Source: a virus. From it: a stretch of 56,225 nucleotides of DNA. How positions within the stretch are numbered: position 1 is the stretch's first letter; the number at the start of each line of letters is the position of its first letter. The position numbers and the translations under genes were made by a program. The stretch is from the IMG/VR virus record IMGVR_UViG_3300046787_000077, positions 1-56,225 of that record, one strand, 5' to 3'. Shown one piece after another: positions 2,648-21,238 of this stretch. Below the pieces are notes generated by a model that was not told the DNA's origin, made no database searches, and worked only from the letters and a program-made list of their open reading frames with translations.

Positions 2648-2857
2648 ATGACACCAAAAGCAAAAGCTCTAAATATATATAATAGATTCTTTAGAGAAGT
2701 TCCATTCCTGCAAGCAAAAAATTCTCCAATAGATGATGTGGATGCAGCTAAAAAATGTGCATTAATAGCAGTAGATGAAATATTGAATGTTATAGAAGTG
2801 CCAAGTACGGAATATAAATATTGGAAAGAAGTTAAACAAGAGATAGAAAAACTATAA
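2648..2857 (+). CDS. Small helical phage protein (69 aa)
   Basis: 69-residue, mainly helical, charged protein (starts MTPKAKAL) containing an acidic DDVDAAKKCA helix. Its stop is one base before the GroES start, so the two are probably translated from one message. I believe similar short proteins occur in other Bacteroidetes phages, but I cannot attach a function. It could be a folding cofactor given its place between groEL and groES; that is inference from position only. Confidence 0.65.
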   Translation: MTPKAKALNIYNRFFREVPFLQAKNSPIDDVDAAKKCALIAVDEILNVIEVPSTEYKYWKEVKQEIEKL

Positions 2858-2858
2858 T

Positions 2859-3116
2859 ATGAAGGTAATCGGTAAAAATATTCTAATCGTCCCAATGGAG
2901 GAGGAGACAAAGTCCAAAGGTGGACTAATCATGACCGCAATGGACACAAATGAGCTACGCTACAAGAAGGCTACCGTGGTATCACAAGGCACGCTAGTAG
3001 ATGGCATAAAGCCAGGCTCATTCATTTACTTCGACAGAGCAGCCGGTCACAGCATCCGCATCAATGAGGACTTATATACAGTCATCACTGAGAAAGATGT
3101 GGTAGTGGTGCTTTAA
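2859..3116 (+). CDS. groES: Phage-encoded GroES-type co-chaperonin (Cpn10)
   Basis: 85-residue beta-barrel co-chaperonin that would cap the GroEL ring. The start MKVIGKNILIVPMEEE is the Cpn10 N-terminal strand. The mobile loop that contacts GroEL is present, with KSKGGLIM carrying the hydrophobic tripeptide, and the barrel strand around GIKPGSFIYFDR is typical. The length is slightly below bacterial GroES (about 97 aa). Its stop codon overlaps by 4 nt with the stop of the convergent gene at 3113-3622. It is expected to act with the GroEL encoded upstream. Confidence 0.9.
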   Translation: MKVIGKNILIVPMEEETKSKGGLIMTAMDTNELRYKKATVVSQGTLVDGIKPGSFIYFDRAAGHSIRINEDLYTVITEKDVVVVL

Positions 3117-3622
3117 AAATCTTTATTAAGTCTACCAATGACCCTGTCATATTGCCTTGTGGCAAAGTGATGGGGTTTATTACTTTTAGGCTTGATGTCA
3201 GATAGCTTAGGAATGGGCTTTTGGCCCTGCAACATCTCATAAACTTGTCGCATGATGGCTTTGGCTTGGTGAGATAGCTCATAAATCGCCCGTTTGCCCG
3301 GTTCAGGCTTTCGAAAATGGACAATTAAGCCTTTCTCCATCAAATCTCTGCGTCTATTTTCAGTAAATCCAAAGATTTGGCAGTACTGGTCAAACTGATT
3401 GGCATCAAATACGTGCTCGGAGTATAAATAACACAATAGTTCAAAGTCTTCTAGGCTCAATCCATGCTTATGGCGAGCCCAGGCACGCACAACTTTTATA
3501 TATTTTAGAAAGTCTTTGTCGACAGCTTCACGTCTAACGACAATTGGCTTGACTTTATATTCACGCACCTTGATAGCTCTAGGTTTAATCTTCCTAGGCT
3601 TCATATATGTTCGGATTGTCAT
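3113..3622 (-). CDS. Putative winged-helix DNA-binding protein
   Basis: 169-residue basic protein on the opposite strand to its neighbours. The N-terminal 45 residues are rich in Lys/Arg. Residues about 50-130 look like a winged helix-turn-helix: SLEDFELLCYLY, then FTENRRRDLMEKGLI, then a beta-wing and YELSHQAKAIM, which resembles the strand-helix end of MarR/PadR-like domains. Its start faces the gene at 3677 across a 54-nt divergent promoter region, a layout common for phage regulators. The role (repressor or early/late switch) is inferred; the exact family is not identified. Confidence 0.65.
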   Translation of the reverse strand: MTIRTYMKPRKIKPRAIKVREYKVKPIVVRREAVDKDFLKYIKVVRAWARHKHGLSLEDFELLCYLYSEHVFDANQFDQYCQIFGFTENRRRDLMEKGLIVHFRKPEPGKRAIYELSHQAKAIMRQVYEMLQGQKPIPKLSDIKPKSNKPHHFATRQYDRVIGRLNKDF

Positions 3623-3637
3623 TGTATTTTATTTTTA

Positions 3638-3645
3638 CAAAATTA
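3638..3645 (-). promoter_or_regulatory. -7 box for the minus-strand wHTH-like gene
   Basis: On the minus strand the sequence reads TAATTTTG, matching TAnnTTTG, 16 nt before the start codon at 3622. It lies back to back with the plus-strand box at 3648-3655, so both promoters share about 18 bp and a bound regulator could affect both. Confidence 0.5.
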
Positions 3646-3647
3646 CT

Positions 3648-3655
3648 TATCTTTG
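3648..3655 (+). promoter_or_regulatory. -7 box for the small-basic-gene operon
   Basis: TATCTTTG matches TAnnTTTG and ends 21 nt before the ATG at 3677. It probably drives the run of small genes from 3677 to about 5474. Confidence 0.55.
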
Positions 3656-3676
3656 TCAAATAATAATAAATAAATT

Positions 3677-4063
3677 ATGGGAAAGCAAAATCCAAAGTCA
3701 ATGATTAAGATTGGTGACTTAAAAAATGTTGTTAGTGATTTACAAACTAGAACTAACGAACTAAAAAGTCAATACCAACAAACTAAACAAGATATATCAA
3801 GCGGTGCTACTATGGGTCAATCTGGCGTAGGCCAATTGCAAGATATGCGTGCTCGTGAAATTGAGCATAATACATCTAAGATTAATCGCTATGGTGGTTT
3901 AATCCAACAAGGTACAATCATGCACGATAAAGCTCGTTTAGCAGAGAAAGAAGCTCAATACAAAAAAGACTATCCTTTAGCTGCAACATATAAGCAAGCT
4001 CAATTGAATGCTCCAGTAAAAAATGGTATGACAATGACAACTAAGATTGTTAAAAAGAAATAA
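3677..4063 (+). CDS. Coiled-coil basic protein, first of the small-gene operon
   Basis: 128 residues beginning MGKQNPKS. Residues about 10-50 form a heptad-like coiled coil (LKNVVSDLQTRTNELKSQY). The C-terminus is basic and ends in three lysines. It is the first gene after the divergent promoter and is followed after one base by the next gene. Function is unknown. Structural or DNA-binding roles are possible. Confidence 0.7.
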   Translation: MGKQNPKSMIKIGDLKNVVSDLQTRTNELKSQYQQTKQDISSGATMGQSGVGQLQDMRAREIEHNTSKINRYGGLIQQGTIMHDKARLAEKEAQYKKDYPLAATYKQAQLNAPVKNGMTMTTKIVKKK

Positions 4064-4064
4064 C

Positions 4065-4202
4065 ATGGCAAAGCAAGAAAAAACACCAATGACACGTCCA
4101 ATGCCTAAAACATATATGGGCATCACTAAACTTTCAGCTGCTGATAAAGCAATGAAGGTTGCTAAGGTAATGAAAGTTGCCAAGGCTATGAAGAAAAAGT
4201 AA
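4065..4202 (+). CDS. 45-residue lysine-rich protein
   Basis: ATG at 4065 gives 45 codons to a TAA whose last base is shared with the next ATG (TAATG). The first half contains TPMTRPMPKTYMG. The second half is an Ala/Lys/Val helix (KAMKVAKVMKVAKAM) ending in three lysines. It is one of the MAK...KKK family of short proteins in this operon. No domain is recognised. Confidence 0.6.
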   Translation: MAKQEKTPMTRPMPKTYMGITKLSAADKAMKVAKVMKVAKAMKKK

Positions 4203-4384
4203 TGAGAGGCTTAGGAGACGTAGTCGAGCATGTTGCTAAGGTAACAGGCGTTGCAGCCGCTGTTAAAGCCGTCGCAGGTGATGACTGCGGCTGTGCTGCT
4301 AGAAGAGATGCATTGAACAGGGTATTCCCATTTAATAAACCACAAGATGGCAAAGACAGCAGCTTGGACAAGAAAAGAAGGTAA
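4202..4384 (+). CDS. 60-residue protein with a CGC motif
   Basis: Starts at the ATG overlapping the previous stop (TAATG). It carries an N-terminal helix (MRGLGDVVEHVAKVTG), then DDCGCAARRDALNRVFPF. I recognise this CGC-x2-R-x-x-LN-FP arrangement as recurring in Bacteroidetes phage genomes, without a known function. The two Cys could bind metal. The tail is basic. Its end overlaps the next gene by 38 nt in another frame. Confidence 0.6.
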   Translation: MRGLGDVVEHVAKVTGVAAAVKAVAGDDCGCAARRDALNRVFPFNKPQDGKDSSLDKKRR

Positions 4385-4619
4385 GGATCCGAAGGGTGGT
4401 CTTAACGCTAAAGGCGTTGCATCATACAGACGTGAGAATCCGGGTAGTAAATTGCAGACAGCAGTGACTACTCCACCATCTAAATTAAAAGCGGGCAGCA
4501 AAGATGCTGCTAGACGTAAGTCATTCTGTGCAAGAATGTCCGGAGTCGATGGTCCAATGAAGAAGCCAAATGGCGAGCCAACAAGAAAAGCATTAGCACT
4601 AAGAAAATGGAATTGTTAA
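4347..4619 (+). CDS. DUF6321-like basic protein
   Basis: 90 residues with the pattern AAWTRKEGKDPKGGLNAKG at the start and SKDAARRKSFCARM in the middle. I recall this arrangement from short conserved proteins of marine phages (probably DUF6321). It is strongly basic and likely binds nucleic acid or is packaged in virions; neither is established. It overlaps the gene before by 38 nt and the gene after by 13 nt, typical of tight translational coupling. Confidence 0.7.
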   Translation: MAKTAAWTRKEGKDPKGGLNAKGVASYRRENPGSKLQTAVTTPPSKLKAGSKDAARRKSFCARMSGVDGPMKKPNGEPTRKALALRKWNC

Positions 4620-11583: not shown

Positions 11584-12746
11584 AATGGATAGTATTTATA
11601 GCCATACTTATCTTACCCACGATTATGTACGCACAAACACTTACACAGGTGTTCGTGGATCCGTGCAGTGGCAAGGTAACAACTGTAGTGGTACCGCTCG
11701 CTGGTGGCAAGACTACCGTGGTTTACCGAGGGCAGTACAAGGTAGTAACGGCAAACGATATTACAAGTGGAGCTCTGCAAGCGTGGATAAATGAGTTAAC
11801 AGTTAACTTCCCTTGTCCACAAGCTACGATTGCAGTAACACAAACGGTAGCTAACGCAGTATCCCAAGCAGTAGCAGCAGCAACAACAGCGGCAACCGCA
11901 ACAGCAACAAGTGCGGCTACATCAGCAGCTACATCTGCAGCCACAGCGGCAGCAGCACCTGCACCGGTGGCAGAAACAAAAACAGAAACACCTGCAGTGG
12001 AAAGTAAATCAGAAACTAAAACAGAATCTAAAAATGAAGAGCAAAAGTCCGAAAGTGGGGGCAAAAGTAAGTCCGAAAAGAAAACCGAGAGCAAAAGCAA
12101 GTCGTCTTCGTCGAATCCAATTATTTATTCTTCGGATTTTACGGTCGCTCCGACTAGTGAAGTAACATCTATTATTGCTAGTGTTGGTATGAGTCAAGCA
12201 TCCTTGATGGGTAACTCATCGTGGGGCATTAACTCTATGATATGGTCAACTTTTGACCAATTCGCACTAGGAGCCAGATATACCTTGATGAATTTTAATC
12301 AAGGCAAGTTGGAGTCCATCTCAAACTTTGGCGTTACAGGCGTTTATTTAAGTGGAAATGTGTTAGGCTTCGCAACGGCTGCTTACATCGTCCCTATGGG
12401 CAAGTATGGCACCACAGGGGCCAACTATACTTTGTCGGTTGCTGGAGCAAATGACGAGGCTAACATATCCAATAATATATTGCTATTCTACACCGTACCT
12501 ATTAAGATAAATAAGTACGTATCAATTAGTCCTGATTTATACGTATCAGGGTCTTCCACGGGTTATCTAACTAAACAAAAAGTATTTGTAACTAGCAATG
12601 ATATAGGTATTCTAACAGGTGCCTCATTTGATATTGCACTAACAAAACGCTTCAAGTTTAACTTTGCCTTAAAGACAGGTGTTAATACTAATCCTGCTAT
12701 TCCTCAGTCCTATCTTGGGATGATAGGCACCAAAATTAATTTGTAA
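11580..12746 (+). CDS. Outer-membrane beta-barrel protein with low-complexity linker
   Basis: 388 residues. Signal peptide (ends IMYA before Gln); a small domain with two Cys (VDPCSGKVTTVVVPL, NFPCPQ) at about 25-80; an Ala/Thr-rich stretch (about 90-125); a Ser/Lys/Glu linker (about 130-178); then a C-terminal region of alternating strands (about 185-388; GVTGVYLSGNVLGF, LFYTVPIKINKYVSISPDLY) typical of an 8-10-strand outer-membrane barrel. It may be the partner or anchor of the CsgG-like pore. It is the last gene of the module, and a small-RNA candidate follows. Confidence 0.65.
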   Translation: MKWIVFIAILILPTIMYAQTLTQVFVDPCSGKVTTVVVPLAGGKTTVVYRGQYKVVTANDITSGALQAWINELTVNFPCPQATIAVTQTVANAVSQAVAAATTAATATATSAATSAATSAATAAAAPAPVAETKTETPAVESKSETKTESKNEEQKSESGGKSKSEKKTESKSKSSSSNPIIYSSDFTVAPTSEVTSIIASVGMSQASLMGNSSWGINSMIWSTFDQFALGARYTLMNFNQGKLESISNFGVTGVYLSGNVLGFATAAYIVPMGKYGTTGANYTLSVAGANDEANISNNILLFYTVPIKINKYVSISPDLYVSGSSTGYLTKQKVFVTSNDIGILTGASFDIALTKRFKFNFALKTGVNTNPAIPQSYLGMIGTKINL

Positions 12747-12771
12747 CTAATAATATTTGTTTTTATATTTG
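12741..12771 (+). promoter_or_regulatory. Strong Bacteroidetes promoter for the small RNA
   Basis: TTG at 12741-12743, a 20-nt spacer and TATATTTG at 12764-12771. It overlaps the last codons of the barrel gene, and transcription should begin near 12778, just before the first hairpin. This is one of the two best matches to the full promoter in the window. Confidence 0.65.
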
Positions 12772-12777
12772 CAGTGT

Positions 12778-12872
12778 AATAAAGCGAGTATTAGTGTAGG
12801 ACCTAATATTCGTTTTAAATAGTTGAAAAACTAAACAGCCCCGACGGTCCTACACGTTGGGGTTTTGTTTTT
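12778..12872 (+). ncRNA. Candidate small RNA: two hairpins with exactly complementary loops
   Basis: A promoter and a terminator bracket about 90 nt without a reading frame. Hairpin 1 has a 15-bp stem (12780-12794 with 12803-12817, two G-U pairs) and the 8-nt loop TGTAGGAC (12795-12802). Hairpin 2 has an 8-bp stem (CCCCGACG 12839-12846 with CGTTGGGG 12855-12862) and the 8-nt loop GTCCTACA (12847-12854), followed by TTTTGTTTTT, so it is also a terminator. The two loops are perfect reverse complements, allowing an 8-bp kissing complex, or a 10-bp long-range helix if the flanking pair opens. A 21-nt A-rich linker joins them. Family and function are unknown. Confidence 0.75.
12839..12872 (+). terminator. 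Rho-independent terminator (second hairpin of the small RNA)
   Basis: GC-rich 8-bp stem with one G-U pair and an 8-nt loop, followed by TTTTGTTTTT. The T tract runs directly into the start codon of the HNH gene at 12873. Confidence 0.8.
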
Positions 12873-13410: not shown

Positions 13411-13418
13411 TATTTTTG
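13411..13418 (+). promoter_or_regulatory. -7 box for the tail-fibre operon
   Basis: TATTTTTG matches TAnnTTTG and ends 26 nt before the fibre ATG at 13445. No TTG is found at the standard -33 spacing, so confidence is moderate. Confidence 0.45.
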
Positions 13419-13444: not shown

Positions 13445-16400
13445 ATGTGTGCTAGAATTTCAACGTATTCTCCCGATTTAGATGTCACCGGCAACGACCG
13501 TTGGATTGGCTCAGACTGGCAAACTCCAGATAAATTAACCAAAAACTTTACAGCAAACGCTGTTGCCGATTATTTTAATCGTGTAGGTATTATCGATACA
13601 GGTAGTTTCAACTGGTCATACAGAATGTATGCACCGACAGAATCTCAACCTGCGAAGACGTTTGAACTAGTTGACCATCCATACGACACAGTAGATGTTA
13701 TTGGACTTGCAGGAACCATCAAGGTTTCATTCTTGACAATGGCTAATACTGAGCCGGGTATCTTCATTGAGCAGGCTTGGTTAGATAAAATTATCCTTGT
13801 TAATCGTCCAGGATTTCCTAGTGAATATGGATTATATAAAGTAACTGCTGTCGTTGAAGATGGTGATTACTATTTCTTAGACTTAGATTTTATTGGTGGC
13901 CATTCAGGTATTGTTAACGAAGATGAGCCAGTTACATTTGGGTTATTCTCAGGCGTAAGTGGCACATCGGGTACTACAGGAACATCAGGAACTTCTGGTA
14001 CTACAGGAACATCTGGTACTAGTGGAACAGATGGCACATCAGGTTCTTCAGGAACTACAGGAACATCAGGTTCTTCAGGAACGGATGGTACAAGTGGATC
14101 TTCAGGTACAACAGGCACATCTGGTTCTTCTGGAACAGGTGGCACATCGGGCACTTCAGGGACTAACGGTTCAGATGGTACATCAGGTACACGTGGTACG
14201 TCAGGTACATCAGGTATTGACGGTATTGATGGAACAGACGGTACGTCAGGGACTAGTGGCACAGATGGTACAGGAGGAACTAGTGGTACAAACGGTTCAG
14301 CGGGTACATCCGGCACTGATGGTACAGGAGGAACTTCGGGGATAGACGGAACAAGTGGGTCTAGCGGTACAGGAGGAACAAGTGGAACTAGTGGAGTTAA
14401 TGGCACCTCAGGTACAGGAGGAACAAGTGGTACAGATGGCACAGGAGGTACTAGTGGTACTGACGGAACAGGTGGTACTTCAGGTACATCTGGGTCTAGT
14501 GGCTCATCAGGCATTGATGGTACTTCAGGTACAGGAGGAACAAGTGGATCATCAGGTACAGACGGTACTGGTGGAACATCAGGGACTAATGGTACTGGAG
14601 GAACGTCGGGCACTAGTGGAGAGTCAGGAACTTCAGGTACAACAGGTACTAGTGGTACAGGTGGTGTTGATGGAACGTCAGGTACATCAGGTGAAAATGG
14701 TGTGTCTAATAACTTGTTCCTATATCAAGCTCACACAACAAGCCAAACAGGATATCCTGGAGATGGACATGTGTCGTGGAACAATACCACACAAATAAAT
14801 GCTACATCAATTAATATTAGCCATATTACTAATAATGGCATTGATATTGATATCTTCTTGGCATTGTTGCAAGATTTACAACAAATTACAATCCAAGATC
14901 AAAATACATCTGCTAACTATCAGATTTGGGATATTAATGGAACACCAACTCAAGTAACAGGTGCAAATAATTATTGGATTGTTCCTGTTACTTTAATATC
15001 GTCAGCTGGTACAGGCACAACAAACTTTGCTAATAATCACGACATATTTTTAGCTATTGTATCTCAATCAGGTACATCAGGAGTTGATGGTACATCAGGA
15101 ACTAGTGGCACAACAGGTACCTCAGGTACAGGTGGAACATCAGGTGTATCTGGAAGCTCGGGTACCTCAGGAGCCGACGGTACTAGCGGAGTAAGCGGAA
15201 CGTCGGGAGTTAGTGGCACATCAGGAGTAGATGGAACGAGTGGAGTTAACGGTACAAGTGGCAGTTCAGGAGTAAGCGGAACTAGCGGTAGCTCAGGAGC
15301 AAGTGGCACGTCAGGTGTATCAGGTACATCAGGTGTTAATGGAACTTCAGGCGTTGATGGTACTTCAGGGTTAAGTGGTAGCTCGGGAACCTCAGGTGCA
15401 AACGGTACATCTGGAACATCAGGAACAACTCCTGTTGGTCAGATCACAGGTACGTTAACCGCTAATAAAATACCTAAAGCAACAGGTACTAATACAATTG
15501 GAGATAGTATTATCACAGAGGCGAGTGGTGCTATTACAGTATCAGGTGCTGCGGTTGATAATTACGTTGCTAGTTTTATTAATACAGATGCAGGCTCAAA
15601 CGGTGTATATGTAAAGGCAGATGGAGCTGCGTTTGTTACCGAGCCATTATCAATGGTTGGTGGGATTACTTTAAACGCTAGTGGTTCAGCATCATTCAGC
15701 GGAGATATAACTGCTAATAAATATATTAAAGTTGGTGGTACATCAGCACAATATTTGATGGCAGATGGTAGTGTTACCACAGGTCCATCACTTGCAGGAT
15801 ATGTGCCTTATACGGGTGCAACTGCAAATGTTAATTTAGGTACTTATGGATTAACTGCAAATTCGATAACGGATGGTTACATAACAATGTCGGTTGCCCA
15901 AATTAATCGTGACCCCGGATTTGTAGAAATGCAATATACTGGGACAGGAGGAGTTCAAATTTTTGGAAATACTGCATATCCAATAGTTTTTAAAAGTGGA
16001 ACAGGAAACGTTATAATTGGAACTAACACAGATGCAGGATATAAACTTGATGTTAATGGTTCAAGTAGAATTGTTGGGGCATCAGGATATTCAAATGGAT
16101 TGTTAATTCAAAATACTTCTACATCATTAGCAAATATTACTGCATTAACTTTACAAGCAAATATTGACGGATACCCAATTCTTGAGTTTAAAGAAGGAAG
16201 TAATCAAAAATGGCAAATTTTTAATGATTATGTAAATGATTCATTAAGTTTTTATAAATGGGTTGGAACAGCAGAAACACTTTTAACATTAACTTCAACT
16301 GGTAAAGTTGGTATTAGCAATACAAATCCATACAGCAAATTTGAAATTTCAAGTTCAGCACAACAATATCAAACAGCACCTGCTATTTTATTTACAGATA

Positions 16401-18970: not shown

Positions 18971-19240
18971 ATGAAACTAAACTTTAATTTTAATCTAGTC
19001 GATTTAGATGGTAAAGAAATCGAAAATGGTAACCTTGGTAAGATATTAGCCAATAACTTAATTAACCAAACTAAAGGGGATGCTGTTAAGTATTGGGAAT
19101 GGGCTCTTGCTTTAAACAAAGGAGAGGTTATTGACCTAGATACATCTGACCAAGAAACCCTTAAAACTTTTATTAAAGACAGCGAAGTATTGCCGGTATT
19201 AACTAAGGCCCAATCTCTTGCTGTTTTTGCTAAGAAGTAA
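18971..19240 (+). CDS. Conserved small phage protein (89 aa)
   Basis: 89 residues. The order of elements (FNLVDLDGKEI, GKILANNLINQTKGDAVKYWEWALAL, LPVLTKAQSLAVF) is one I recognise from short conserved phage proteins near tail genes; its function is not known to me. The leader contains ACTTTACAAAAAAAAATATATT, much like that of the gene at 21288. The last 42 nt overlap the 3' end of the convergent glycosyltransferase gene. Confidence 0.65.
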   Translation: MKLNFNFNLVDLDGKEIENGNLGKILANNLINQTKGDAVKYWEWALALNKGEVIDLDTSDQETLKTFIKDSEVLPVLTKAQSLAVFAKK

Positions 19241-21238
19241 TATTACATCATCAGCAGATATACTCCTCTGACACTCAAAATGTCGGGGAGTATTCTTCCA
19301 AATTGGACAAAAGTCCCAGTCCGAAGCATCGAATTTAAAGTTAGGGTTGTTCCAACAACTGTTGCATACTGACTTGTTAGTCACACGAATGCAGTCAAAC
19401 TCGTGGTCATCTGCAGCGAAGTTGTTTACCATAACCACTTGCTTGCCTAGAGCATTTGCTAACCATGAGACTCCGCTGCCCAAGCCCAGGTAAAATTGAC
19501 TATGGTGAATAATAGCCATTGTCTTTTGGATATCATAATTAATAATCTGCTCACAGTTGTCGAACGGATTCTCTTCTAGTGAAACATTTATCACTCGGTA
19601 TCCTTTGCCAACTAAATAGTTAATCACTCCTTGCCATCCCTCTTTTGTCCAAAACTTACAGCCTGATGTAGAGTTGGTAGCTATCGTAACATATTTACCA
19701 TACAAATTGTTACCAGCATCATACTTTAACTTAGGCATAATCTCTTGGAAGTCAAGTCCTAATATCTTAGTTGCTGCTTCTTGTAGCTTTATAGTATTTG
19801 GCAATACTGGTTCTTTATTTGTGTCATAGAACCAACCTATGTTATACTGAGCATAGATGTTGGGCACCACCGTTCCCGGTTCCACTAATTCTATCTCAGG
19901 AATGTCAAGTATTTTGTTCAAAAAAGTTGACATAATAACCTCGCATCTGTGCTTCTTTTGAAACTCTACAGCATATGGTGCCCAAGCAATTGTGTCGCCT
20001 AAAGACTTGCTAGATAAGGCAATGTACACACGCTTGCCTTCTAGGTCAAGTACGTTATCGTGAATTAGTTTACCATCCATGTAGACTTTACTGTGCCACT
20101 TAGTATAGTATTGTCTGTTTAGTTTGACCCAACAGTTTGATCCGATAGTATTCTCGTAGATTAACTTGTCGCCATCAAAGTATTGTACCTTAAAGTCGGC
20201 TTTTAGTCCTGACTTAATTTCTAGGTATGGCTGGCCAACAAAGTGTTGGATAATTTTAACATCTTGTTCTTGTTTGTCTAGTGTCATTACTTTGTTGTAG
20301 AATACCTTTTGCTTGTCCCAGAATTTAACTGATGTATTATCTGTAGGTATATTGTAATTACATTTAATAGTATTTAGATCGGTGTCGATAGGCTGAATAT
20401 ACTTATCAAACATTGAGCCATATTGTGGTAAGTTGTGAGCTACAATTGGTTTGCCAAAAGATATCGCTTCACGTAATACTAATGGGTTGCACTCCCAAGT
20501 AGAATTGAACATAAAGATATCTGCCATCTTAATGAACCTGTGTGCATCATTTCTCTCCAGCCACACGTGAACATTAGATGGCAAATCCTTCATTAATGGC
20601 TCCCAGTAATGCTTGAAATTTATAGCTTGGTTTCCGACAAAATGAAAGTCCATCTCAGGATACTTTCTAGCTATCTCAATCCCCTCAGCTTGATTCTTAC
20701 CAGGAGTCCAAAGACCTACGTTGACTACGTTTATTTTGTTTGTATAAAAAGGGTTATCATACGTCTCACTTATTCTATTGTCTATTGGAAACTCAATCAC
20801 CTCTTTGTAGGATGGTGATGAAGCGAATGTCTCTAAGTGATATGGCGTGCAGAAGTAGTACGCATCAGGATGAAATATCTTTTCTGTGTCGTGTTTAAAT
20901 GACACGTCGTGACACGTCTCCACGATTCGGTAACTTCGGTCTTCCCGATATAACTCAGCAATCATATCACGATTAAATCGCTCAGATGGCTCGTGAATGT
21001 GAACAATGTCAGGATTGAATTTTGCGATGATGTTGAATAACTCCATCTTGTCCTCGTGCAAGGTATGAAACGGAACTAGTTCCTTGATTGCATTTCGTTG
21101 CACGACATAATCTAAACTATGGCATTGATACTCTACTACCTCTATCTCAAATGTCTTGTAAAGAGTTTGAACACTCTTTAAAACAAAACCGGGCATCCCG
21201 CCAGTCGAACAGTGAGGAATTAAGTATAGTAGCTTCAT
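19199..21238 (-). CDS. Two-domain glycosyltransferase (GT4-like + BAHT/GT9-like heptosyltransferase)
   Basis: 679 residues, encoded against the surrounding tail genes. The N-terminal half (1 to about 330) is GT-B type and GT4-like: PHCSTGGMPGFVLKS at the start and REAISFGKPIVAHN in the donor-site helix. The C-terminal half (about 400-679) resembles bacterial autotransporter heptosyltransferases: ALSSKSLGDTIAWAPYAVE, an acceptor/donor core, and a four-Cys finger at about 625, 628, 644 and 656 (CNSC, DFC, FEC), whose CxxC-x15-C spacing fits the iron-binding finger of TibC. These enzymes attach sugars to Ser in repeats of surface proteins. Likely substrates are the virion fibre or host surface. 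It is probably a moron gene. Confidence 0.8.
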   Translation of the reverse strand: MKLLYLIPHCSTGGMPGFVLKSVQTLYKTFEIEVVEYQCHSLDYVVQRNAIKELVPFHTLHEDKMELFNIIAKFNPDIVHIHEPSERFNRDMIAELYREDRSYRIVETCHDVSFKHDTEKIFHPDAYYFCTPYHLETFASSPSYKEVIEFPIDNRISETYDNPFYTNKINVVNVGLWTPGKNQAEGIEIARKYPEMDFHFVGNQAINFKHYWEPLMKDLPSNVHVWLERNDAHRFIKMADIFMFNSTWECNPLVLREAISFGKPIVAHNLPQYGSMFDKYIQPIDTDLNTIKCNYNIPTDNTSVKFWDKQKVFYNKVMTLDKQEQDVKIIQHFVGQPYLEIKSGLKADFKVQYFDGDKLIYENTIGSNCWVKLNRQYYTKWHSKVYMDGKLIHDNVLDLEGKRVYIALSSKSLGDTIAWAPYAVEFQKKHRCEVIMSTFLNKILDIPEIELVEPGTVVPNIYAQYNIGWFYDTNKEPVLPNTIKLQEAATKILGLDFQEIMPKLKYDAGNNLYGKYVTIATNSTSGCKFWTKEGWQGVINYLVGKGYRVINVSLEENPFDNCEQIINYDIQKTMAIIHHSQFYLGLGSGVSWLANALGKQVVMVNNFAADDHEFDCIRVTNKSVCNSCWNNPNFKFDASDWDFCPIWKNTPRHFECQRSISADDVILLLSKNSKRLGLS

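Follow-up and report, generated by a model that had tools for sequence, protein, structure and literature searches.

An apparently undescribed kissing-loop leader RNA upstream of homing endonuclease and replication genes in phages of Bacteroidota

The window analysed here, a 56,225-nt stretch of viral DNA, contains a gene for a NUMOD4-HNH_3 homing endonuclease (Table 1), and a collagen-repeat tail fibre gene lies behind it at 13445. The terminase of the window matches those of Flavobacterium elemo phages at 44% and that of the unclassified record MW202828 at 66%, and on the strength of this relationship we take the window to be a phage of Bacteroidota. A glycosyltransferase gene (679 aa) is located on the minus strand between the tail-fibre and terminase genes, at 19199-21238. 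Four relatives (L003, L005, L012 and L016) have the same upstream gene followed directly by the tail-fibre promoter, with neither the HNH gene nor the RNA element that precedes it. Because relatives that lack the HNH gene also lack this leader, the promoter, RNA and HNH gene behave as a single inserted cassette.

The RNA element upstream of the HNH gene consists of two hairpins separated by a spacer. The preliminary description of this DNA had reported exactly complementary 8-nt loops, a near-consensus promoter, a T-tract terminator and no reading frame. It was right on each count: the loops, checked letter by letter, are exact reverse complements, and with the closing bases GTGTAGGACC/GGTCCTACAC the match extends to 10 nt. 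The promoter boxes follow the general Bacteroidota consensus. Direct inspection of the letters gives 15 pairs in the stem of hairpin 1, two of them G-U (2/15), and eight in that of hairpin 2, one of them G-U (1/8); the folding energy of the hairpin pair is -36.8 kcal/mol (z -6.0). Sequence and folding place a G+C-rich hairpin followed by a U tract, the pattern of an intrinsic terminator, at 12839-12872. Nothing separates the end of the U tract (12872) from ATG 12873 of the HNH gene, and no Shine-Dalgarno sequence is visible in the window between the stem of hairpin 2 and this ATG. An intergenic small RNA had been proposed; its structure holds, but its placement does not, since the RNA ends directly at the HNH gene ATG and thus reads anatomically as a 5' leader.

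Table 1. Features of the leader and its cassette in the window, and matched-word leaders in cultured phages
Feature	Location	Strand	Basis
TTTG, putative -33-type promoter box	12740..12743	+	sequence; N20 separates it from TATATTTG
TATATTTG, putative -7 promoter box (TAnnTTTG)	12764..12771	+	sequence; box common to nearly all other members
Hairpin 1 (P1), 15-bp stem and 8-nt loop (12795-12802)	12780..12817	+	sequence, folding; class P1 covaries, helix 1 100% paired
Hairpin 1 5' arm TAAAGCGAGTATTAG	12780-12794	+	sequence
Hairpin 1 loop TGTAGGAC	12795-12802	+	sequence
Hairpin 1 3' arm CTAATATTCGTTTTA	12803-12817	+	sequence
Kissing word UGUAGGAC (10 nt GUGUAGGACC at 12794-12803)	12795..12802	+	exact complement of 12847-12854
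A/U-rich spacer between hairpins	12818..12838	+	sequence
Hairpin 2 (P2), stem of predicted terminator, 8-nt loop	12839..12862	+	sequence, folding
Hairpin 2 5' arm CCCCGACG	12839-12846	+	sequence
Hairpin 2 loop GTCCTACA	12847-12854	+	sequence
Hairpin 2 3' arm CGTTGGGG	12855-12862	+	sequence
Kissing partner GUCCUACA (10 nt GGUCCUACAC at 12846-12855)	12847..12854	+	sequence; class kissing helix 252/252 paired
U tract TTTTGTTTTT of predicted intrinsic terminator, up to start codon	12863..12872	+	sequence
NUMOD4-HNH_3 homing endonuclease ORF, 176 aa	12873..13403	+	Pfam PF07463 4.8e-12, PF13392 4.5e-10; phrog_59 2.5e-36
TATTTTTG, tail-fibre gene promoter box, right edge of inserted cassette	13411..13418	+	sequence; relatives without cassette
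Kissing leader, words matched	Flavobacterium phage 11b 33621-33728		R2
Kissing leader, words matched	Polaribacter phage Danklef_5 29547-29649		R2
Kissing leader, words matched	Flavobacterium phage FCL-2 37475-37589		R2
Kissing leaders, words matched	Cellulophaga phages phi10:1 and phi18:3		R2
Kissing leader, words matched	elemoA		R2

How much weight can the loop match bear? The real window and dinucleotide-shuffled windows were scanned for a hairpin and a T-tracted hairpin with complementary loops of at least 8 nt. The real window yielded one match, the element at 12780-12872; shuffled windows yielded 0.42 each. A chance match had been called very unlikely; in the window alone it is only mildly so, and it is the comparison with other phages that excludes coincidence. 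Taken as a lone instance, the loop match is suggestive of kissing, and certainty about the window element therefore comes from comparative evidence.

The window RNA has copies in four further phage contigs (L002, L109, L110 and L150), each time before an HNH gene. The loops are invariant among these close copies, which are therefore uninformative by themselves on loop pairing. A scan for the exact pattern of the window words returned mostly chance pairs, the informative matches being the same RNA in L077, L109, L110 and L150. In L109 and L110 the RNA is near-identical to that of the window, and the HNH proteins are only 44-49% identical to the window protein; overall, the HNH proteins behind near-identical leaders show 44-80% identity. 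In L161, which has the HNH protein closest to the window's (94%), the leader is unrelated in sequence. These two observations indicate that leader and nuclease are exchanged independently. L110 also encodes proteins resembling its own GroEL and GroES chaperonins (2766-4313 and 4313-4570), and a GroEL-like gene lies behind the leader in L483 as well.

Among HNH genes gathered from viral contigs of other phages, many have leaders that are unrelated in sequence and share the same architecture. For a subset picked without regard to complementarity (TAnnTTTG 85-135 nt before the HNH ATG, plus a T run), an exact complement of at least 7 nt between the leader ends was found in 13 of 13 distinct leaders, as against 22% of cross-locus pairs and 23% of shuffles. 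Double-sided changes occur at 18 of the 21 pairs in an alignment of 11 leaders. We then have the results of a covariance model, R1, that contains the two stems and no loop pairing, run on whole viral records and newly fetched loci: 24 of its 25 distinct elements have an exact loop complement of 6-11 nt. In an alignment of 37 members, among them the nine sequences used to build R1, every member has a perfect 7-bp loop-loop match. Across this alignment the kissing helix is Watson-Crick in 252 of 252 cells, with zero G-U and 82 double-sided changes, and the covariation of the whole structure is 0.901, compared with 0.228 for shuffled alignments (0/500) and at most 0.132 for slid structures.

There are 18 distinct kissing words in the 37-member alignment and 41 overall, and different words do not cross-pair (0/306). 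The distance from word start to word start is 45-54 nt in most members, and a U tract lies behind the second hairpin in the aligned members. Independent variation of the loops, which the preliminary description had named as evidence against pairing, was not seen: the loops vary, and always together, both in the alignment and at the elemo locus. That description had also suggested that the terminator might compete with a long-range helix. This is not supported. The two stems are conserved alongside the kissing helix, which argues that all three co-exist, and an alternative-helix switch was rejected on this ground; moreover, the complementarity ends at the loops in most members. The comparative evidence strongly supports a real class of structured RNA in which two hairpins are joined by a strictly Watson-Crick kissing helix.

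The window element has a promoter box (12764-12771), an 8-nt loop match (at least 7 nt being needed for membership) and a U tract before ATG 12873. Many members of the class contain, a few pairs below the second loop, a tandem-purine internal loop (UGAU/UGAU, UGAA/GGAU or UGGAU/UGAAG) that was recognized by eye in the alignments; this is a common rather than a defining feature, and it is absent from hairpin 2 of the window, which is fully paired. Neither R1 nor a second covariance model, R2, gives the window RNA a score. Judged by these sequence features, the window RNA is a divergent subtype of the kissing-loop leader class.

R2 was used to search cultured phages, and it located the leaders with matched words in Table 1; the E-values of both models are rough, and weak phage matches with E >0.01 (phi38:1, phiST) show no kissing either and were discarded. 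In the elemo phages the small ORF and the replication gene behind the orthologous element stay the same, and its words differ between three lineages, each pair being exact: UGAGAGC/GCUCUCA, GUGGAGG/CCUCCAC and GUGAGAUG/CAUCUCAC. Paired change of this kind is what the preliminary description had named as support. Words also differ between sister phages that infect one host strain. In Danklef, phi19:3, elemoA and MD08, intra-operon HNH genes lie directly behind the preceding gene.

The majority of members precede an HNH gene, a balance of contexts that is biased because the searches were seeded with HNH proteins; the ATG usually lies 0-6 nt after the modelled element. One such gene, behind the leader at 1501-1613 of L485, belongs to a different HNH family (CxxC...HIDHIIPL), so NUMOD4 proteins are not the only ones that the leader accompanies. 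Most of the remaining members lie in front of early operons that carry genes of the replication-initiation, DnaD-like or primase type, including FCL-2 gp54 and the elemo replication gene; replication-initiator or DnaD-like genes are often found in the operon behind the leader in cultured and several metagenomic phages. A few members precede other genes (a phosphoesterase gene in L191; also L483 and L508). Two contigs, G313 (L184, L490, L495) and G310 (L150, L483, L492), each carry three kissing leaders with three words, and an HNH gene lies behind most of these. R1 gave no match in 296 Bacteroidota genomes, R2 gave five weak matches in 395, none with a credible kissing pair, and NUMOD4 genes in Bacteroidota genomes, inspected by eye where printed in sense orientation, have no such leader. 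Under these strict filters, the absence of a credible R1 or R2 member from the bacterial genomes makes the class look phage-specific.

Rfam release 15 gave 0 matches at the gathering threshold in the window and 18 related loci, and sub-threshold matches at a relaxed threshold were at chance level, which upholds the earlier statement that no known RNA class is present. We found no published description of a kissing-loop leader in the open-access literature. Hence, the class is apparently an undescribed regulatory RNA of Bacteroidota phages, a novelty that is provisional because the literature covered consists of open-access papers.

What might these leaders do? We consider it moderately likely that they are cis-acting attenuators: hairpin 1 would lock the terminator and thereby throttle endonuclease or replication genes. 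RNA polymerase would start ~7 nt after TAnnTTTG, and hairpin 1, at the very 5' end of the transcript, would fold first. Once a further ~50 nt had been made, the terminator-hairpin loop would emerge and immediately pair with its counterpart in hairpin 1, through 7-8 Watson-Crick pairs or up to 10 in the window RNA; this kissing would guide and lock the terminator stem. Most transcripts would then stop in the U tract, giving an RNA of ~90 nt with a hairpin at each end. In read-through mRNA, hairpin 2 would also cover the ribosome landing zone, because the start codon is directly behind the U tract. Such covering would matter in Bacteroidota, given that translation initiation in Flavobacterium proceeds without a Shine-Dalgarno sequence and is tuned by mRNA structure (PMC6847099). 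The predicted outcome is low, gated expression of the HNH nuclease and, in other members, of replication-initiation genes; with two different gene contexts, no single regulated function explains every member. Comparison supports the anatomy, the co-existence of the three helices, their conservation and the genomic contexts. We infer the function and direction of control, together with transcription from the promoter, termination, the sign of the kissing effect and the opening signal, if there is one; the kissing leader is probably an off-switch.

There is precedent for restraint of this kind. In T4-type homing endonuclease genes, RNA hairpins that cover the ribosome site silence expression; for I-TevI/II/III, segB and mobE of T4-like phages, as here, a structured RNA where the phage homing-endonuclease gene begins is thought to restrain expression (PMC2988022). 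The T4-like cases are single hairpins over a Shine-Dalgarno sequence and are relieved by late promoters, whereas members of the present class have two hairpins and a kissing helix, a U tract after the second hairpin, their own upstream promoter and no Shine-Dalgarno sequence; in the window leader no stem covers such a sequence, and Bacteroidota mRNAs are devoid of them.

A mere terminator lock would not obviously need diverse words without any G-U. This hints, against the attenuator, at extra selection on sequence, such as interactions in trans. In ColE1, RNAI and RNAII form kissing complexes between two RNAs, their seven-nucleotide loops pair completely, and words differ between types. The present class is alike in its full pairing over seven nucleotides and its type-specific words, but here both loops are in one RNA. 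It is conceivable, though we think it rather unlikely, that the leader is a self-antisense system, in which one ~90-nt RNA, bearing a word together with its complement, would control its own gene in cis through kissing and, after termination, act in trans on nascent leaders that share its word. A trans-acting signal, in which the terminated RNA pairs with same-word nascent leaders to give word-specific dosage control or exclusion among co-infecting phages or cassettes, seems to us similarly improbable. It would account for words that diversify while their complementarity stays perfect, and for the different words of sister phages; furthermore, copies within one genome never share a word (0/15 pairs in 11 genomes). 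However, intramolecular pairing should outcompete pairing in trans, and the absence of repeated words is near the chance expectation for words this diverse and is not significant by itself.

A third reading of about the same low likelihood reverses the direction of control: kissing near the start codon would open the initiation region or pause polymerase and turn the gene on, the gene being otherwise off. In ColIb-P9, translation of repZ, which encodes the replication initiator, depends on a pseudoknot upstream of the ribosome site (PMC8383071). Members of the class share with that leader an intramolecular pseudoknot before replication initiators, and their second hairpin is close to the start codon. 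In repZ the pseudoknot activates and an antisense RNA competes; in the present class the pairing is a kissing helix of 7-8 bp with a loop that resembles that of a terminator, and many members precede HNH genes. The second hairpin and U tract in aligned members look like a terminator with the start codon within a few nt, and 11 of 12 tested members have no opposite-strand promoter of the TAnnTTTG type over ~250 nt.

The HEARO/OMEGA RNAs of IscB are structured RNAs directly upstream of a gene for an HNH-bearing nuclease. The present RNA has the same position, and a strict Watson-Crick match would let two loops read both strands of one DNA target. Nonetheless, a role as RNA partner or guide of the HNH nuclease, with the loops addressing the target, is very unlikely: the words are no more frequent in flanking DNA than chance predicts (2 against 2.1 expected), there is no HEARO or other Rfam match and no guide segment, the nuclease family differs, the class also precedes replication genes and the unrelated HNH family of L485, and near-identical RNAs precede the divergent HNH proteins of L109 and L110. 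An ordinary small RNA or terminator with coincidental loop complementarity, for which the mild improbability of the window match left some room, is refuted by covariation and by loop matches (37/37 and 24/25) in sets that the model did not select for loop match.

The initial reading of the locus had missed that the RNA leads an HNH homing-endonuclease cassette and belongs to a large class whose members also stand before replication genes. The class, apparently undescribed, stands before two decisive types of gene, those for homing endonucleases and replication initiators, and includes cultured phages. This makes it possible to test what restrains free-standing homing endonucleases outside T4, how Bacteroidota phages time replication, and whether intramolecular kissing can set the strength of a terminator. 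In the 41 natural word pairs there is a ready-made set of compensatory mutants and, possibly, of orthogonal switches. If the self-antisense reading were true, words would divide phages and HNH cassettes into groups comparable to plasmid incompatibility groups, and matching words would lead to dosage control and exclusion of replication and homing.

A different recurrent structured leader, without an Rfam match, is located ~100 nt upstream of HNH genes at L165, L174 and L179, in what seem to be Firmicutes-type phages; an inner hairpin is enclosed by a long stem built around TAGTGAT/TAGGGTAGC.
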